Assembly (NCBI GenBank): GCA_004376295.1
Contig: SOJZ01000024.1
Span: 1 to 32,254 of the forward strand
DNA: 32,254 nucleotides
Reading direction: 5' to 3'
Source of the DNA: Candidatus Bathyarchaeota archaeon
GTDB lineage: Archaea; Thermoproteota; Bathyarchaeia; Bathyarchaeales; Bathyarchaeaceae
Part shown: positions 18,532 through 28,738 of the stretch, one piece after another
Numbering within the stretch: the first letter of the stretch is position 1
Layout: each line of letters opens with the position of its first letter
The notes under the pieces: generated by a model
The model's input: only the letters and a program-made list of their open reading frames with translations
Told to the model about the DNA's origin: nothing
Databases searched by the model: none
Made by a program: the position numbers and the translations under genes

Positions 18532-19473
<942 letters not shown>

Positions 19474-19520: not shown

Positions 19521-21731
19521 TCAAACAAGGTATCGATGCCGATCCTGAAGCTCTCTCACTTTTCCCTTGTTCCACCCACTCACTGCTTGATAATAACCCG
19601 TTACTCTTGACCACCATTCTACATTTGAAGAGCCACAGTTTGGACATCGCTCATTAAGAGGTGATGTAACTCGCCCACAATCACTGCAGACCGTTAGGTC
19701 TTTTGTGTAGGCGTAGTAGCCTACATGAGTTTTTGTGGCTATTCTCTTAGTTAGTTTATAGAGCGCCTCAACATCTGGAGAAGCATCTCCAAGCCACACA
19801 TGAAGCATGTCCCCTCCATTCAAAAGTGGGAAAAACTTCTGCTCTATGTCTATTCTATCCAGCAAACTCACCTTAGCTCCAACATCCAAATGAGTCCCGT
19901 TACTATAATAAATAGGAACATCACTTTCCCGCTTGGCAAGCAAAAACCTAGCCTTTTTCACGTCTCCTTTAACAAGTTTCTCAGCTTTATCGCGATAAGC
20001 ATCTGTCAAAACGTCTGCTATCGCAAACGTTTGAGCCGTAGATTCAGCTGGCGTTCTGGCCAAAGCAAGCTTAAGGCCTGTTTTTTCTTCAAGCACCTCC
20101 TTGTACTTTTGCATCTCAAGAATCAATTTAACAAGAATCCTAATTGCCTCAGAATTCTCATGAAGTTGGTAGCCCGTATGCCACTGAGCCATCTCATTTC
20201 CGCCTACAATGCCTATCGTAAAGGTTAGCGCATCAAAGTCTACTGCTGAAGTTCCCTTTCTACCAGTTTTTGGGTCCAATGGACGTTGCGTCGCGAAGGG
20301 TATTCTCTTGTGTTTTGCCATGAGGTTCATCCACTTCTTTTTCATTTTAAATATTTCAACTGCAGAGTCCATTAATCTCCGGCTTTCTTCGAAGAGTTTC
20401 TCGTCTTCTCCATTAGCTTTATAGGCCATCCTTGGAAGGTTCAGACTCACAACCTGCCAACTCCCCATGGTAAAGTGTTTTCCATCGGTGAAGTAGAGCT
20501 TGTCTTCGAAGTCCGGGCTATCCTCCGGTGTTTCAACAAAGCAGTAAGCACAGCATTGGTAACATGAAACGCCCTTCCCATATCCTCTGTACGCTGGCAT
20601 CAAGTTGTCGAAGTAAGGTATTCCAAATTTAGCTACAACTTTGTGAACGTCAAGCCAGAAGTCGTCGTATTCAGGCTTGAAAAATTCAGGGCTCAAAGTG
20701 TTTTCTAGTTTTGGGAAATTGAAAGGCTTCCCCCAGTAGTCACCTTCATAAGCCACATCATAAAGTGCCTTAAACATGAGGCGAACTTCGTCCTCGTAGT
20801 CACCGTAGACATCAGGTCCAACTCGCCCCCTCGCTACAATGGGAACTTTTCTCCAGAGTTCTGGAACTCCAGGTTGCACCTGAATATTACTGAAGACGAG
20901 TTGTCCACCTCTAGCCACATAGGCCTGTGTATATTCAAAAAACATCATCTGCATCAGTTGTCTAACTTTCTTGTAGTTCAGTCCCCTCATATACGGCGCG
21001 AGGAAAACCAAAAAGTTGTAGAATCCCTCACCGCCGGCAAAATTTGTTTGTGCAGAAGCCAGAATTTTTGCTGTATGAAGCATTGCAACCTCTGGGTGCT
21101 TGGCGGGACCAGCAACGCTTGTTCTAGTGCCAATTCCATCTGGCATTAATCCGTAATAGAAGAAGTAGCGGAGATCCCAATCCTGGCAGAAGGGTCTTGT
21201 TCCAAAATATTCGAGATCGTGTATGTGCAGTTCTCCTGATAGGTGGGCGTCAGCGAGTTTCGGAGGCATTAGGAGCAGGTATTCTTCTTCGGAAACCCAG
21301 TCCGCCTTTCTTTTATGAGCGGTTTCAGGATTGGGTTGAAGATTTGCATTTTCCTTAGCTTTGAAGCCTTGTCCTACATCTATCAAATAGGAGTCGTAAA
21401 CTGGCGTTCCCACTCGCGTTAAAAGATTTCTGTAAAGGGTATACTCTGGTCTTTCCTTAGATCTGTCGAGCAAGATGTTGTTTACCATTTCCCTTATGAG
21501 CGGGCCACTTACAAACCTAAGCTTCAAATCAAAGATTCTTTTTTCAGCATCAATAGCTATTTCCCTAGCTTCTTCTCTACTTATTGGCCTCACATCATAG
21601 AATTCTTTGGCGAGTTTTGTCTCTGTTAGAAGCTGTCTCACGATAGCGTTTCGATTCCACGGCACGATAAAGCCATCGGTTCTCCTGACTTTCGGCTGAA
21701 CTTCTTTAAAAGTTGATTCGCCAGTTTCCAT
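19521..21731 (-). CDS. nrdD: Anaerobic ribonucleoside-triphosphate reductase, class III
   Basis: The 736-residue protein has an N-terminal ATP-cone (RRTDGFIVPWNRNAIVRQLL onward, about residues 15-105) and the glycyl-radical catalytic body (LADAHLSGELHIHDLEYF, VSLNLPRMAY). A zinc site CSDCG...CPNCG precedes RVTGYY, where G712 is the expected glycyl radical residue. It makes deoxyribonucleotides under anaerobic conditions and needs an NrdG activase, which is not in this window. It directly follows the glutaredoxin-like gene with no gap, so the two form an operon. The ATP-cone implies allosteric control by ATP and dATP. Confidence 0.96.
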   Translation of the reverse strand: METGESTFKEVQPKVRRTDGFIVPWNRNAIVRQLLTETKLAKEFYDVRPISREEAREIAIDAEKRIFDLKLRFVSGPLIREMVNNILLDRSKERPEYTLYRNLLTRVGTPVYDSYLIDVGQGFKAKENANLQPNPETAHKRKADWVSEEEYLLLMPPKLADAHLSGELHIHDLEYFGTRPFCQDWDLRYFFYYGLMPDGIGTRTSVAGPAKHPEVAMLHTAKILASAQTNFAGGEGFYNFLVFLAPYMRGLNYKKVRQLMQMMFFEYTQAYVARGGQLVFSNIQVQPGVPELWRKVPIVARGRVGPDVYGDYEDEVRLMFKALYDVAYEGDYWGKPFNFPKLENTLSPEFFKPEYDDFWLDVHKVVAKFGIPYFDNLMPAYRGYGKGVSCYQCCAYCFVETPEDSPDFEDKLYFTDGKHFTMGSWQVVSLNLPRMAYKANGEDEKLFEESRRLMDSAVEIFKMKKKWMNLMAKHKRIPFATQRPLDPKTGRKGTSAVDFDALTFTIGIVGGNEMAQWHTGYQLHENSEAIRILVKLILEMQKYKEVLEEKTGLKLALARTPAESTAQTFAIADVLTDAYRDKAEKLVKGDVKKARFLLAKRESDVPIYYSNGTHLDVGAKVSLLDRIDIEQKFFPLLNGGDMLHVWLGDASPDVEALYKLTKRIATKTHVGYYAYTKDLTVCSDCGRVTSPLNERCPNCGSSNVEWWSRVTGYYQAVSGWNKGKVRELQDRHRYLV

Positions 21732-22040
21732 CTACTTTCCTTCTAAAATGTGTAAGAGCTCACCGTTGATCCGCCCATTTTTGTCAAAAATTTCGTCTTC
21801 TCTATAAACGGTTTCTTCAACTTCCAGAGCGGGCGCCGAGAGAACGACTGCGTTTCTCATAACTAAATCGGCCATAACGTCCACGTTTTCTAGGTCTTTC
21901 TCCTCGAACTCTTTTTCTCTGCTCTTTAGCCATTCTTTAAGCATAGCACATCTGGGGCACCCACTAGATGTGTAAACCACGATTCTATCAGCTCGTGGCA
22001 CACACCCGAGAGAGCCAACGGAATATTTCAAAGAACCCAT
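21732..22040 (-). CDS. Glutaredoxin-like protein of the nrdD operon
   Basis: The 102-residue thioredoxin-fold protein has SSGCPRCAMLKEWLKSRE, a CxxC redox site, then APALEVEETVYRE where a cis-Pro is expected. It is the likely reductant for the reductase, or a thiol carrier for it; this is inferred from the stop codon abutting the nrdD start. I choose ATG 22040 because GAGGG lies 6 nt upstream; a GTG at 22058 opens the same frame. Confidence 0.87.
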   Translation of the reverse strand: MGSLKYSVGSLGCVPRADRIVVYTSSGCPRCAMLKEWLKSREKEFEEKDLENVDVMADLVMRNAVVLSAPALEVEETVYREDEIFDKNGRINGELLHILEGK

Positions 22041-22084
22041 GAGAATCCCTCGCAACACAAGGATGACATAAATGGAAGATAATT

Positions 22085-22100
22085 CTATTTTAAATTTTTA
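22085..22100 (-). promoter_or_regulatory. Probable TATA region of the glutaredoxin-nrdD operon
   Basis: On the minus strand AAAAATTTAAAATAG lies about 25-30 nt before a start site near 22070 and 45-60 nt before ATG 22040. The palindrome at 22109-22124 is just upstream. Confidence 0.4.
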
Positions 22101-22108
22101 GAGAAGTT

Positions 22109-22124
22109 GTATAAAATTTTGTAC
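22109..22124. promoter_or_regulatory. Candidate operator palindrome before the glutaredoxin-nrdD operon
   Basis: GTATAAAATTTTGTAC is a 16-bp palindrome with one mismatched pair. It sits immediately upstream of the TATA region of the glutaredoxin-nrdD operon and just after the stop of the winged-helix NrdD-like gene. An operator role is inferred from position; it could also be chance in AT-rich DNA. Confidence 0.4.
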
Positions 22125-22129
22125 GAAAT

Positions 22130-24439
22130 TCAAGTTGAAATTAACACATACGATACTCGGTTGCTTAGAGCTGAAATCTGGGCTGGATTCGAAAAAGGTG
22201 CCGGTAAATGCTTTGCTGAGACACGGCTGAAGCAAATAAGCATATTAACTGATCCGCATGACGGACATTTCGGCGGTATCCCATAAAAGGTTTTTTGGCA
22301 GTTAGCGCAATAAGCGAGGTTTCTGTTGTAAGCGTAAAGTCCAACTTTGTATTTCTTCACAATTTCTTTTGTGGTTGACAAGAGTTCGTCCGGGTCTTGC
22401 TTGGAATCAGCGAGTTGTATGATTGCGAGGTGGCTTCCCGGAGTTAGTTCGTGGAACTCTTCTTCAATACGTAATCGATCTTTCCAAGAAACTTTGTTTG
22501 TTAAAGGCACAGCAACCATGTCTGTGTAGAAAGGTTGTTCTCTGGTGCCTTGAACGTGAACCTTTGCCCAGCCGCAATGTTCTACATCCAGTTCTGCTAA
22601 CCTCTTCGCCGTGTTAGCGCTGGGCACCATAGAGAGAGCTACACGAGTTTCAGGCTTCTTCGCGTAACCTTGAACAGTTTTAGAAAGGTGTCTTACTGTT
22701 TCTTTAGCAAAACACATGGCTTCGGTATCCTCGTTTATAGCTTTCTCGAGAAATGACTCTACTGTTTCGTTTAGTCCGACAAAACTGACGAGGCGAGTAG
22801 CGTTTTCAAGCCTGAAATAGTGGTTGCCGTCGGCTTTCTGTGTAAGGAATGGAAGCAGTCCTTCTCTTGCGCGTTGCCTGAGTGTTCGATACTTTATTTC
22901 TAACGCACGGCACACCATCTCTAGTCGTTCATCTAAAAGCTTAAAGAATACGGGTTGACTTCCTTCGGCATCGTATGAAGCTCTTGGCAAATTTAGTGTA
23001 ACGCTGTCGATGCTTCCTGTTTGCAGTGTGTCGAGTTCCCAGTCTCCTTTCCAGTCGGCGGCAAATCTGCATCCCGTCGCGGTGTAAGAGGTATACTTTT
23101 GTTTTTTGGAGCATAAGTTTGCGAAGTATGGAGTACCTCTCTTGGCTGCAAGTTGGTGGGATTGAAAGAGAACATCCTCGCATTCTTTGTTTCTCAGCAC
23201 TTCTGGTCGTATTTTTACGATTAAACTTGGGTTGAAGACTGGTTTGTGCTTGTTGTCTTCAAACATCACTTCGAGAAGAAGAGAGGCAATGAGGCGACTT
23301 TTTTCAACGAAATCCCCATAGCGGTCAGTCTTCTTCCCGCCGGGTCCAATAGCCTTCCTTTTTTCTAGGAAGTCGGGAACAACAAGTTCTAAACCCAGCG
23401 ATGCTCCTATAGGAAAACCTTCATTTGACAAGGATTGATTAAGGTTGAAGACAAAGGTGCGTAGGGATTTCCGAATTCTCTCTTCTGAAAGACCTTGGGC
23501 GAATGGTGCCAAGAAAACGTTGAAGTAATCGAATGCTTGTTCTCCTGAAGTTTCTGTTGAGGCGATTTTGAGGACGTTGGATATTGTTGAAAGCGCGGAT
23601 TCGAGGCTTTTTGGAGGAAGGGATGACAGTCCTATGAGACTCGTTCTTCCAAGGTTTAGTCCGTGTTGGAGGAAGAAACGGAGGTCATGCATGAACTCGT
23701 TTGGTTTTAGAATCCAGTAGCCGAGGTTGTTGAGGTGGAGTCTTCCGGAGAGGTGGGCGTCGGCGATATCTCTGGGAAGCACATTTAGCAGAGTGTACTC
23801 TTCAAGTACTGCGTCGCCCGCTGCCTTGTGAACAGCTTCAACGCCTAAAGATGTGGTGCCTTTTGACCGTATTAGTTGGGTGACATCGTAGACTGGAAGT
23901 CCTAAACGTGTGAGTTTGTGTCGATATTCTTCGAGTCCTTTCTCTACTAGGACCGCGTTGACGAACTCTCGAATAAGTGGGGCTGTGAGATATTTTGTCT
24001 TGAATTCTGATAGGCGACCTTCGGTTTCTCGTGCAATCTTTTGTGCTAGGTCTATGGGGACGTTTGCTTCCCGGACGAGAGAGTCGATGATTTTGTTTCT
24101 GTCGAATTCTTCCATCGCCAAACGTGAAGTGCGGACGAGCATTTTCTTTTTTTTGAAGAAGTGTTTCTCGATGTGTTCGGTCATGTCGATGATTGTGCGT
24201 CCGAGGTCGGTTAGGCGGTATTTTTTTGCTTCCGCATCGGGTTCGATGAGGTCTGCTTTTAGAAGGTATTTGAGGTGGTATGCGAACCGGCCTGCATCTC
24301 TTGTGGGGTTTAGGCGTAGGATTTTCATGATTTCGGTGTAGGAGAGTGGTCCTCGGTTTAAGAGAAGGTTTAGTACTTTTAGTCTTATTGATGATGCGAC
24401 TGCTTTGAGTACTCTTAGGCCTGATCGTCTACGGGGCAA
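22130..24439 (-). CDS. Winged-helix / ATP-cone / NrdD-like fusion without the glycyl radical Gly
   Basis: Residues about 10-90 form a winged helix (VLKAVASSIRLKVLNLLL, LSYTEIMKILRLNPTRDAG, YHLKYLLKADLI). An ATP-cone follows (about 105-190), then a full NrdD-like body: DIADAHLSGRLHLNNLGYW, TATGCRFAADW, TLNLPRASYD. The C-terminal zinc site CANCQ...CPSCG is kept. At the radical site the active paralogue has SRVTGYY; this one has SRVSAKHL, so the essential Gly is Ala, and later conserved Trp is lost as well. It should not be a working class III reductase. Fusion to a DNA-binding domain beside nrdD suggests a nucleotide-sensing repressor. I place the start at TTG 24439 (GGAGG 8 nt upstream); TTG 24454 is the alternative. 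Confidence 0.9.
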   Translation of the reverse strand: MPRRRSGLRVLKAVASSIRLKVLNLLLNRGPLSYTEIMKILRLNPTRDAGRFAYHLKYLLKADLIEPDAEAKKYRLTDLGRTIIDMTEHIEKHFFKKKKMLVRTSRLAMEEFDRNKIIDSLVREANVPIDLAQKIARETEGRLSEFKTKYLTAPLIREFVNAVLVEKGLEEYRHKLTRLGLPVYDVTQLIRSKGTTSLGVEAVHKAAGDAVLEEYTLLNVLPRDIADAHLSGRLHLNNLGYWILKPNEFMHDLRFFLQHGLNLGRTSLIGLSSLPPKSLESALSTISNVLKIASTETSGEQAFDYFNVFLAPFAQGLSEERIRKSLRTFVFNLNQSLSNEGFPIGASLGLELVVPDFLEKRKAIGPGGKKTDRYGDFVEKSRLIASLLLEVMFEDNKHKPVFNPSLIVKIRPEVLRNKECEDVLFQSHQLAAKRGTPYFANLCSKKQKYTSYTATGCRFAADWKGDWELDTLQTGSIDSVTLNLPRASYDAEGSQPVFFKLLDERLEMVCRALEIKYRTLRQRAREGLLPFLTQKADGNHYFRLENATRLVSFVGLNETVESFLEKAINEDTEAMCFAKETVRHLSKTVQGYAKKPETRVALSMVPSANTAKRLAELDVEHCGWAKVHVQGTREQPFYTDMVAVPLTNKVSWKDRLRIEEEFHELTPGSHLAIIQLADSKQDPDELLSTTKEIVKKYKVGLYAYNRNLAYCANCQKTFYGIPPKCPSCGSVNMLICFSRVSAKHLPAPFSNPAQISALSNRVSYVLIST

Positions 24440-24476: not shown

Positions 24477-24487
24477 GTTTAAAAAAT
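24477..24487 (-). promoter_or_regulatory. TATA-like sequence upstream of the winged-helix NrdD-like gene
   Basis: TTTTTTAAAC on the minus strand is about 40-45 nt before TTG 24439, suitable for a short leader that carries the GGAGG site. Confidence 0.35.
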
Positions 24488-24579
24488 TGTAGTAGGCTTG
24501 GTTTTGTGTGTGCGTGTGATGGGTCTAGGTATAGAAGAGATTGACTTCACTTTCATAAAGTATTCATGAAATGAAACAT

Positions 24580-24705: not shown

Positions 24706-27114
24706 TCATTCTGGAGCCAAATAGATGATTTTTAGTTTAATCATTACAGCTACTATAGCGACCACTATTATTGGAACTACAATTAGGAGTAAGGTCGTTA
24801 GAGGTAAACCGCCCACACCACCATCTCCCGGAGCGGCTTCAGGCGTTATTGTTATTTCTCTTTGGCTTTCTCCGTCGGTGTATCCGCTCTTTGTTGCGGT
24901 CGCTTTGATGTTGACATTAAGTTGCGTAGTTGTTTGCGGCGCTGTGAAAGTAAATGCGGCGTTGCCGTTTGAATCGGTGACTTGGCTGGTTACAGAGAAG
25001 TCTCCACCACCATCTGACAATATTGTAACCTCTGCGTCTGCAACAGGGTTTGCGTTATATGTTACGCCAACAGTTATGGTTGATGAAGTTCTTGACTCAA
25101 CTGCGACAGGATTAGCAGTAATTTGAACATTGAGTGTTCCAGGGTTTACGGTTATTTCTACTTGATCTTCACCATCAGCATAACCAGTTTTTGTAGCTGT
25201 TGCAGTGATCATTACATTGAGTTGTGTGAAGGCTTGCGGAGCTGTGAAAACGACTGTGATGTTGCCGTTCGAATCAGTGATTCCGGTTTCTGCAGAGAAG
25301 TTTCCGTTACTATCAGACGATATAGTAACGAGAGCATTTGCAACAGGTTGCCCATTATAAGTGACATGGGCTGTAACCTGTGATGTTGCTTCGGATTCGA
25401 TTAAAGAGGGGTCAGCAGTAACTTGGACTAAGAGAGGTGGTAGGACTGCTAAATACTCGTGGTCGGAACCATCTGCGTAACCGTTTTTTGAAGCGGTTGC
25501 AGTTATTCTGATGTTAGTTATTTGAGTTACATTTGGTGGACTAAGCATTGTAACGAAATATCCAGTTGAGTTTGTAAAGCCAGATGAAGGCAAGAAACTT
25601 GCATGCATGTTCAATGCGTGGTCTAGTCTGCGCTTATGTACTGAGAATAGGGTGATATGTGCGTTTTCTACTGGGTTTGTTCCGTTTGTGATGTGGATTG
25701 TGATTGGAACTTGTTGAATATGGCCAACTGTGTAAGCGCTTGGGGTGATAGAGACGTCTAGTGATGTAAGGTTTTGAACACGTATGGTTATCACAGCAGT
25801 ATTGTTACTTTCACGGCCGAAATCGTCCATTACGGTGACGGTTGCGTTATAGGTTCCAAGTGAAGAATATTTATGAACAAAAATTGATAGTGTCGTCCAA
25901 TCGCTGTTACCTCCGTCTCCGAAATCGAAAAGGTATTTGTCGACACGTCTGTCGTCGCTTGAATTTGTGGCGATAAATGTGACAATTTGATTTGGAGGAA
26001 CCAATGTCTTGTCTGTCAGAAGCTTTGCTGTGGGGGGTGTGTTGATGTAGCCAATTGGAGCGGTTAAAAAGAATATGAAATCCAGATTAACTCCATTGCC
26101 ACCTACGGGGTTGCCTTTTCCAGTTGGGTTTAACGATATGTGGTAGGGTCCGCTTTCGTGGCCCCAGTAGTTGTATTCTGCACTAATGGTAGCGTTAAAT
26201 GAGACGCCCACATTCATACCGTATTCATTGCCGTAAATGTCGTTGTAATAAGCTACGTGATCCTTTCCTCCTTTGTAAAAAATTCCGATAGTGTTGTATG
26301 AAATGGAATTCCTAGTGATGTATGTGTTTGCTTGGCCTGTAATGTAAAATCCTTTGTTGTTTGCGGAAAGAATGTTGTTGACAATAACGAGACCGCTGTA
26401 AGCATTTGCGTCAAGTTGTATTCCGCTTTGCGTGTTAGACATCACAATGTTTTCTGTTATGCTTACTCCTGTGGTTGAGCTTCCGGTTAAGAGTATGCCG
26501 TTTTTATTCGAGCTTATTGTATTATTTTGTATGGTAACTTGATTGTTACCAGTTATGTAGACACCGCTCTCAAGGTTGTTGGCTATTTCATTGTATTTCA
26601 CTTCTGCTATGCTATTTTCTATGGTGATTCCGTTTTGAGAGTTATTGGTTATTTCGCAGTTTTCGATTTTCACGTTGCTGTTTTCTATGGTTATGGCGTT
26701 TTTTGCGTATTGTATACTACAGTATGTTAATGTAGAAGGTTCAGTTCCGTTAAACTTGATTGTGTTCCAATCTCCTGCTTTTGGTTGGTCTTTGTTTGAG
26801 GTAAATGTTATCGTGTTATTTTCTTCACCGATTGCAGAAAGACTTCCCCTCACATTTAGTGAAAAGTCTCCTCCAAATCTTACTTGAACTCCAGGCTCTA
26901 TTGTTAATGTGGCAGTTGGGTAAACGGTTATGTTTTTGGACACTGTAAATGGGCTATCTGTTAGCGTCCAAACGGTGTCTTGGGTAATGTCCCCTTCTAT
27001 GTAAGTTGCGCTTGCAGTAAAAATGAACAGTCTGTCTGCGAATGCTAATGCACTTACGGTTATGACTATTAAAAGACAGGATAGTTTCAACTTTTCTTTC
27101 AAGCGTTCACACAT
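24706..27114 (-). CDS. Large cell-surface protein: beta-helix, PKD and Ig-like repeats
   Basis: The 802-residue protein has a signal segment (LSCLLIVITVSALAFA, about residues 12-27) and a C-terminal membrane anchor (LTTLLLIVVPIIVVAIVAVM) ending in a short tail. Between them are parallel beta-helix repeats rich in N-x-I/V (NNSQNGITIENSIAEVKYNE and similar, about 125-315, NosD/PbH1 type), then a PKD domain (KYLFDFGDGGNSDWT, about 365-450). Two close Ig-like repeats of about 100 residues follow (VQVTADPSLIESE... and VQITANPVAVESR..., each ending TKxGYxDGExQxEIT), after one more divergent copy. Many N-x-S/T sites suggest glycosylation. It probably displays a binding or polysaccharide-active domain outside the cell. 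Confidence 0.88.
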   Translation of the reverse strand: MCERLKEKLKLSCLLIVITVSALAFADRLFIFTASATYIEGDITQDTVWTLTDSPFTVSKNITVYPTATLTIEPGVQVRFGGDFSLNVRGSLSAIGEENNTITFTSNKDQPKAGDWNTIKFNGTEPSTLTYCSIQYAKNAITIENSNVKIENCEITNNSQNGITIENSIAEVKYNEIANNLESGVYITGNNQVTIQNNTISSNKNGILLTGSSTTGVSITENIVMSNTQSGIQLDANAYSGLVIVNNILSANNKGFYITGQANTYITRNSISYNTIGIFYKGGKDHVAYYNDIYGNEYGMNVGVSFNATISAEYNYWGHESGPYHISLNPTGKGNPVGGNGVNLDFIFFLTAPIGYINTPPTAKLLTDKTLVPPNQIVTFIATNSSDDRRVDKYLFDFGDGGNSDWTTLSIFVHKYSSLGTYNATVTVMDDFGRESNNTAVITIRVQNLTSLDVSITPSAYTVGHIQQVPITIHITNGTNPVENAHITLFSVHKRRLDHALNMHASFLPSSGFTNSTGYFVTMLSPPNVTQITNIRITATASKNGYADGSDHEYLAVLPPLLVQVTADPSLIESEATSQVTAHVTYNGQPVANALVTISSDSNGNFSAETGITDSNGNITVVFTAPQAFTQLNVMITATATKTGYADGEDQVEITVNPGTLNVQITANPVAVESRTSSTITVGVTYNANPVADAEVTILSDGGGDFSVTSQVTDSNGNAAFTFTAPQTTTQLNVNIKATATKSGYTDGESQREITITPEAAPGDGGVGGLPLTTLLLIVVPIIVVAIVAVMIKLKIIYLAPE

Positions 27115-27764: not shown

Positions 27765-28193
27765 TCACTCTAGCATGTTTTTGACCGTTAAGAGAAAACC
27801 TCTTGCTTTGTTTAAGCAGTATCTAGCATCTTTTTCGCTGCTTTCTGTTTCGAGTCCATAAAGTGTCTCATGCCTGTCTATTCTGATGGAGTTTAAGGTG
27901 TTGATTAGAGATCCGCTTAGTCGCCCGGTGTTCACGTATTTTTCCCTCAGATATTCAATTAGACAGACATGGCTCTTTTCAATGATTCCATCCTTGAACA
28001 ATATTGCTCTTGCCGCGTGGAACATGGTAGTATAGGCGAGAACTACTGTTGCGTCCAACAATCCGTGGTTGAATGCTCTCTCAGCCTCGTTCAACTTGGC
28101 TCCTGCAACCTCAATTGGTCTCTTACTTTTTGCTAAGTCTGGTCTTTCTCTTCTCAACAGTCTCTTTCTGAAGCATTCATTCAATCTCATCAT
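27765..28193 (-). CDS. HEPN-domain protein (putative toxin of an HEPN/MNT pair)
   Basis: The 142-residue protein is an all-helical HEPN domain: EAERAFNHGLLDATVVLAYTTMFHAARAILFKDGIIEKSH, LREKYVNTGRLSG, and RIDRHETLYG with the R-x4-6-H type motif (here seen as RIDRH). The C-terminus SSEKDARYCLNKARGFLL is typical. HEPN proteins are often RNases whose activity is blocked by AMPylation from an MNT partner. Its start overlaps the stop of the winged-helix MNT gene, so the two are coupled. A damaged copy of its 3' end is at 30972-31062. Confidence 0.83.
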   Translation of the reverse strand: MMRLNECFRKRLLRRERPDLAKSKRPIEVAGAKLNEAERAFNHGLLDATVVLAYTTMFHAARAILFKDGIIEKSHVCLIEYLREKYVNTGRLSGSLINTLNSIRIDRHETLYGLETESSEKDARYCLNKARGFLLTVKNMLE

Positions 28194-28738
28194 TTCACTA
28201 CCGGAAGGTTGCCTTGAAGCACGATGCTGTCAACTAATATTCTCTCATAGAACGCCTTGTCCTTTTTTGCTTTTTCTTCCCATTCGTGTGGGGTGTAAAT
28301 GAGGATGGTGACTTTTCTTTTTATTTTCTTCTCGAATTTGCTCAAGTTAAACCGTTCTGTTTTTCTCCCCACGATAAGCAGGTCCATGTCGCTTTCCGGA
28401 TCGTCTTTTCCTCGAGCGCAACTTCCATATAATATGATCGAAGAGTTTGGATAAGTATTCTTTAAGAAATCTATCAACGGCTTCGCGTGCATCATGAAAT
28501 AACTGAGTTTTATATACCTGAAGCTGAGGTTTTCCAGATTAGCCTTAAACAACACAAGGTTAGCTTTCCTACTCTTTATGAGAAACTTGCTTTCACTGTA
28601 GAAGTCGAGGAATCTCTTCGCTGTGCTTGGGCTTACATCGGCAAGTTTTGCTATTTCCCGTAGGTGGAAGTCGCGATATGGCTCTTTGAAAAAGACGACG
28701 AGAATGCGAAGTCCCGGATAGTGAAATGGGTTTTTCAT
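28190..28738 (-). CDS. Winged-helix MNT nucleotidyltransferase (putative antitoxin)
   Basis: The 182-residue protein combines an N-terminal winged helix (FHLREIAKLADVSPSTAKRFLDFYSESKFLI, about 22-55) with a minimal nucleotidyltransferase: SIILYGSCARGKDDPESDMDLLIVG, where GS and D-x-D (DMD) are the catalytic residues. In HEPN/MNT systems such a protein modifies the HEPN toxin; the winged helix could autoregulate the operon. The ATG at 28738 lies 12 nt past the end of the AbiEii-like fragment. The stop overlaps the HEPN start. Confidence 0.85.
   Translation of the reverse strand: MKNPFHYPGLRILVVFFKEPYRDFHLREIAKLADVSPSTAKRFLDFYSESKFLIKSRKANLVLFKANLENLSFRYIKLSYFMMHAKPLIDFLKNTYPNSSIILYGSCARGKDDPESDMDLLIVGRKTERFNLSKFEKKIKRKVTILIYTPHEWEEKAKKDKAFYERILVDSIVLQGNLPVVK

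Follow-up and report, generated by a model that had tools for sequence, protein, structure and literature searches.

To our knowledge, it is an open question how the supply of DNA building blocks is controlled in archaea without NrdR. The bacterial regulator NrdR is associated with paired boxes at RNR promoters, often also at its own gene, and occurs in connection with RNR genes of different classes; replacement of ATP by dATP in its ATP-cone confers DNA binding (PMC9110341). Our window (the whole stretch of 32,254 nucleotides that was analysed) lies on contig C24 of a 1.89 Mb Bathyarchaeia genome (G000), in which no full-length match to the NrdR model TIGR00244 was found. It carries a gene that joins a winged helix to an ATP-cone and a whole NrdD-like body (hereafter, the fusion). 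We consider it probable that this protein is a transcription regulator of RNR genes, a dead class III RNR with a winged helix that would bind promoter boxes, sense nucleotides and control nrdH-nrdD or nrdJ.

Domain architecture and catalytic residues

The single frame of the fusion encodes DUF7347 and HTH_5 (ArsR) domains at residues 15-90, an ATP-cone at 106-177 and an NRDD body at 206-745 (5.6e-94; Pfam), in agreement with the first-pass annotation, which had placed a winged helix, a cone and an entire NrdD body in one reading frame. The HTH_5 match scored 22.5 against a cut-off of 22 bits, and the N-terminal structure model, a low-depth model usable for the winged helix only, was that of an ArsR/SmtB winged helix (CzrA, CadC, HlyU; best E 2.5e-3). 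These predictions back the DNA-binding domain proposed at first reading. No reading was taken from the whole-protein AlphaFold model (five sequences; mean pLDDT 39). The fusion lacks an N-terminal zinc ribbon and has HTH_5/DUF7347 instead; its zinc site is C-terminal and part of the NrdD body. The four zinc cysteines (C716, C719, C730, C733), earlier described as intact, are indeed present in the window fusion and in 60/60 aligned Bathyarchaeia orthologues. When compared with the curated NrdD model (TIGR02487), the fusion scored 324.8, narrowly below the cut-off of 326.35. Homologues start at about the sixth codon of the window frame, so the TTG at 24439 is the likely start.

Table 1. Features of the fusion and nrd locus in window coordinates; promoter elements are predicted.
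Feature	Coordinates	Strand	Evidence or remark
wHTH-ATP-cone-pseudoNrdD fusion gene	22130..24439	-	ORF open to 24454, 774 aa
Winged-helix domain, residues 12-82 of the 774-aa frame	24209..24421	-	Pfam DUF7347/HTH_5, ArsR-like model
ATP-cone, about residues 105-192	23879..24142	-	Pfam ATP-cone 106-177
NrdD-like body, residues 205-710, C79-like Cys replaced	22325..23842	-	Pfam NRDD, catalytic columns
C-terminal zinc ribbon (C716, C719, C730, C733) and degenerate radical loop RVSAKHL	22133..22324	-	Alignment
Fusion-gene promoter element ACTACAATTTTTTAAAC, likely autoregulatory (predicted), over TATA region	24477..24493	-	Near-invariant in seven families
Box A GTACAAAATTTTATAC, upstream of nrdH-nrdD	22109..22124	-	Core TACARAATTTTAWAC exactly once in genome
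Box B TCTAAAAATTTAAAAT, may be BRE/TATA; centres of boxes A and B 22 bp apart	22087..22102	-	
NrdH-like glutaredoxin	21732..22058	-	Pfam Glutaredoxin 1.9e-7
Intact class III nrdD, Gly radical site and cysteines	19521..21731	-	TIGR02487 over cut-off
pyrB, convergent with the fusion/nrd cluster	18553..19473	+	Profile matches; commonest neighbour across Bathyarchaeia

Just upstream of the fusion, 24706-27114 (-) encodes an 802-aa protein that combines beta-helix, PKD and Ig-like repeats and has a hydrophobic helix at its C-terminus. Farther along, 27765-28738 (-) holds a HEPN protein and an overlapping nucleotidyltransferase, possibly a toxin-antitoxin system of the MNT-HEPN type or a Hailong-like pair.

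To evaluate catalysis, we aligned 61 Bathyarchaeia fusions with 16 ordinary NrdD proteins and counted 60 of the fusions, one damaged copy being excluded. The C79-like Cys (T4 numbering) was present in 16/16 ordinary NrdD versus 0/60 fusions, the window fusion reading KPNE where the enzyme has RPFC. The C290-like Cys was kept by all 16 enzymes versus 12/60 fusions (the window fusion among the 12), and the radical Gly by all 16 versus 5/60. The Tyr that follows this Gly in every ordinary NrdD is absent from the eight commonest letters at that column in the fusions. In the window fusion, the radical loop reads SRVSAKHL versus SRVTGYYQAVSGWN in the neighbouring NrdD (19521-21731), so that the glycyl radical motif RVxGY is missing (RVSAKHL; RVTGYY in the adjoining enzyme). 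The other two reading frames over the loop hold no Gly-Tyr version, which upholds the earlier statement that the degenerate site is not a frameshift; nor is the loss a local defect, chance or an assembly error, because 55/60 orthologues also lack the Gly. The expectation that all homologues lack the Gly holds for most copies only. Five of the 60 (four from family f10, one from f19) keep it with R after it, in two f30 copies the G precedes a K, and the f29 copies have lost the C290 region and the entire radical loop. Such G-retaining copies, together with the C290-like Cys of the window fusion and 11 others, could suggest a still-active or differently active reductase. We regard this as very improbable, considering that the C79-like Cys is lost in all copies, including the G-retaining ones, that the G is followed by R or K and never by Y, and that the tested f10 genomes have NrdJ and no NrdG. 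The fusion is, by these residues, near certainly catalytically dead, as the pseudoenzyme call had anticipated.

The gene is nonetheless under purifying selection. Relative to genome G066, dN/dS was 0.108 for the whole fusion (winged helix 0.031, cone 0.060, body 0.120) and 0.063 for the neighbouring nrdD. A decaying pseudogene, to which the variable C-terminal tail might point, is barely credible, since the frame is open in most genomes and the gene is near-universal in the class; the constraint refutes it. Across the 60 orthologues, 16/71 positions of the winged helix were at least 95% identical, and its most constrained part was the recognition-helix region, with a near-invariant DAGxFxYHL. 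The corresponding count for the ATP-cone was 35/88. Mean identity of the cone between families was 0.71 in the fusions versus 0.44 in ordinary NrdD, and that of the body, over the same genome pairs, 45% versus 49%. The winged helix and cone are therefore the best-conserved parts of the fusion, above the body, whereas for the cone the enzymes show the reverse. By these comparisons, constraint has shifted to the DNA-binding and nucleotide-binding ends of the protein.

Distribution, descent and partner reductases

Within the class, 245/257 genomes gave a match. The fusion itself occurs in ~198/225 genomes of Bathyarchaeia families f1-f24 (counted by hand from the match table, E below 1e-100), the remainder being mostly partial drafts, and families f25-f27 have ordinary NrdD only. 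The N-terminal 196 residues gave matches at 43-60% identity in many further Thermoproteota families. Among these, f29, f61 and f58 genomes carry archaeal amoA and are therefore ammonia oxidisers (AOA). In the tree, fusions and ordinary NrdD were separated by one branch (support 99). The fusions probably form an ancient Thermoproteota family that arose from a class III RNR through loss of catalysis and addition of an ArsR-type winged helix at the N-terminus. A literature search restricted to open-licence papers found no description of the fusion, which is not proof of novelty.

The fusion follows the RNR of the cell, not NrdD, and is kept while the RNR class changes. Class II NrdJ accompanies the fusion in genomes of f10, f13, f15 and f18 (up to 98% complete), which have no NrdD besides the fusion. 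No NrdJ was found in G097 (99% complete). NrdG exceeded its cut-off in 13/14 tested genomes with NrdD and in 0/10 nrdD-less Bathyarchaeia and 0/10 AOA/f71 genomes, all 20 of which carry the fusion. The window genome has NrdG too, as activase of its live NrdD. In 22/23 f29, 6/6 f61, 4/4 f58 and 1/1 f71 genomes (32/33 for AOA in total), nrdJ is the next gene downstream of the fusion and has the same orientation. In f18, too, the fusion precedes nrdJ, directly in G211 and with one opposite-strand ORF between in G209. In G068 (L067 4948-7300), a bacterial-type nrdD has replaced the archaeal gene in place, leaving a truncated nrdH remnant, and the fusion and the nrd promoter box are kept. The expectation that the fusion always sits next to an intact nrdD did not hold: across Thermoproteota it adjoins nrdD or class II nrdJ, or is convergent to pyrB. 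Its staying while the RNR class changes supports regulation better than constant nrdD adjacency.

An alternative is that the fusion acts on the live RNR at the protein level, as a dead regulatory or structural subunit within a mixed oligomer, and that its winged helix serves protein contacts. The NrdD family signal kept by the body and the proximity to nrdD in f1, f6 and f21-f23 would agree with such a role. We consider it improbable, however, because the fusion is kept in NrdJ-only genomes and beside nrdJ, a different RNR class, because the recognition-helix region is what the winged helix conserves most, and because promoter boxes are common to RNR genes (see below).

In f4 (e.g., G114:C9:97726-100253), a true bacterial-type NrdR adjoins a bacterial-type nrdD and the fusion is also present, which rules out NrdR and the fusion as mutual replacements. 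Retention of the fusion in f4, where a true NrdR accompanies nrdD, counts against the proposed control of RNR genes, as does the missing NrdJ of G097.

Two side observations concern neighbouring and partner genes. Adjoining the fusion, or divergent from it, is a gene for 423-427 aa with no assigned function (L088, L100 and related f18/f20 loci), and in f18 a fusion-type element lies between the two. NrdD/NrdJ frames of 1000-1270 aa were seen at G144:C8, G025:C9, L156, L157 and L161; in several of them the family match is split, a pattern expected of inteins.

Predicted promoter elements

A ACTMYAATTTTTTAAAC-type element upstream of the fusion gene was nearly invariant in seven families (f1, f10, f12, f13, f14, f20, f23), the fusion proteins that share it being only ~37-55% identical. 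An 18-bp pattern around it had its sole exact genome match at this promoter in G000, G066, G068, G008, G016, G020, G052 and G213. Upstream of nrdH-nrdD in f1 and f6, we found a box A and a box B whose centres are 22 bp apart and which overlap the start of the nrd promoter. The fusion-promoter element resembles the nrd box without being the same sequence; in G222, an exact copy of the element stands at the nrdD promoter. We note that the boxes are AT-rich, coincide in part with TATA-like sequence and had their borders first set by eye.

The exact core of box A occurred once per genome, at the nrdH-nrdD promoter, in G000, G066, G068, G052, G053 and G184. This bears on the idea of a regulator that acts more broadly in nucleotide metabolism, on pyrimidine genes or replication, and for which RNR would be one target or a mere neighbour. 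Since pyrB is the commonest neighbour of the fusion (38 counts within four genes, ~58 loci) and recurs in f35, f39, f46, f50, f52, f62 and f66, targets could include pyrimidine genes, and the f4 fusion beside a separate NrdR would fit as well. However, pyrB is usually convergent with the fusion and therefore shares no promoter with it, and AOA place the fusion with nrdJ; together with the single box core at nrdH-nrdD, this makes the wider role rather unlikely.

Used by itself in a one-box search, the fusion-promoter matrix missed most nrd promoters, and a two-box model was needed. The two-box matrix was trained on the f1 and f6 class III nrd promoters only and run on 577 control promoters and all other RNR promoters. 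Of 46 held-out RNR promoters, seven were in the top 1% of the controls (0.5 expected), one family each (f10, f12, f13, f15, f18, f21, f22), and five of them were class II nrdJ. The nrdJ promoters of nrdD-less genomes scored higher than other nrdJ promoters (p=2.4e-4; family means p=0.006). With this search, no match was found at the nrdD promoters of f25-f27, whose genomes have no fusion, and no box at nrdJ in f2-f5. By-eye comparison found no recognisable Bathyarchaeia box at the fusion-nrdJ leader of AOA, whose sequence differs. The results for f2-f5 and AOA count against the proposed control of RNR genes. The f29 fusion-nrdJ gap (L296-L313) holds a conserved block, AAAACTAGTTACGATCATTTTT...TTTTTGATC, in many copies as seen by eye, a possible AOA operator; GATC repeats also occur upstream of the fusion at these loci.

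The link to RNR genes drawn by the first-pass annotation is thus borne out in the adjacency to nrdD or nrdJ and in shared predicted boxes. Since the fusion adjoins a live RNR and shares likely control sites with it, it probably switches the RNR gene; such control is well supported as a reading of these sequences.

Proposed mechanism and comparison with known systems

We infer box binding, a nucleotide response, and repression rather than activation. The fusion would most likely be a dimer whose winged helices bind the AT-rich promoter boxes, and would control the RNR operon on which the cell depends, be it nrdH-nrdD or nrdJ. In many lineages this control would extend to the fusion gene itself, where the element overlaps the presumed TATA region and therefore suggests autorepression. 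The ATP-cone may read the ATP/dATP ratio, and the dead NrdD body may serve to hold the dimer together and perhaps to sense a second nucleotide. By analogy with NrdR, high dATP would favour repression and turn RNR expression down. A broader reading, which we hold to be fairly likely, is that of a pan-Thermoproteota nucleotide-sensing regulator that uses a complete dead class III RNR as its sensor and controls class II or III RNR; in AOA, an oxygen-labile enzyme family would then survive only as the switch of a B12-dependent RNR. The fusion is a specific candidate for control of dNTP supply across Thermoproteota, with predicted sites and cultured relatives (the ammonia oxidisers). If true, it would clearly illustrate how a metabolic enzyme can be kept whole as a transcription sensor, long after its reaction left the cell.

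Our fusion resembles three known systems in part. It shares with ArsR/SmtB repressors the predicted fold of residues 12-82, but these are small metal or redox sensors, whereas the effector part of the fusion is an RNR relative. With the class III RNR NrdD (TIGR02487/PF13597) it shares the body family, the ATP-cone and the C-terminal four-Cys zinc site; unlike NrdD, it has an added winged helix and has lost the C79-like Cys and, in most copies, the radical Gly. Like the bacterial RNR repressor NrdR, it has an ATP-cone joined to a DNA-binding domain, is linked to RNR genes of different classes and has paired promoter boxes, although the box sequence differs and boxes are not seen in every family. 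On these grounds the functional analogy with NrdR proposed at first reading appears sound. Its DNA-binding part is an ArsR-like winged helix in place of the zinc ribbon, its length is ~770 aa with a whole dead NrdD versus ~150 aa, and its boxes resemble TACAAAATTTTATAC and are spaced by about two helical turns, versus about three in NrdR. The fusion would thus work like NrdR but is not NrdR, and is best viewed as an analogue that was probably built independently.
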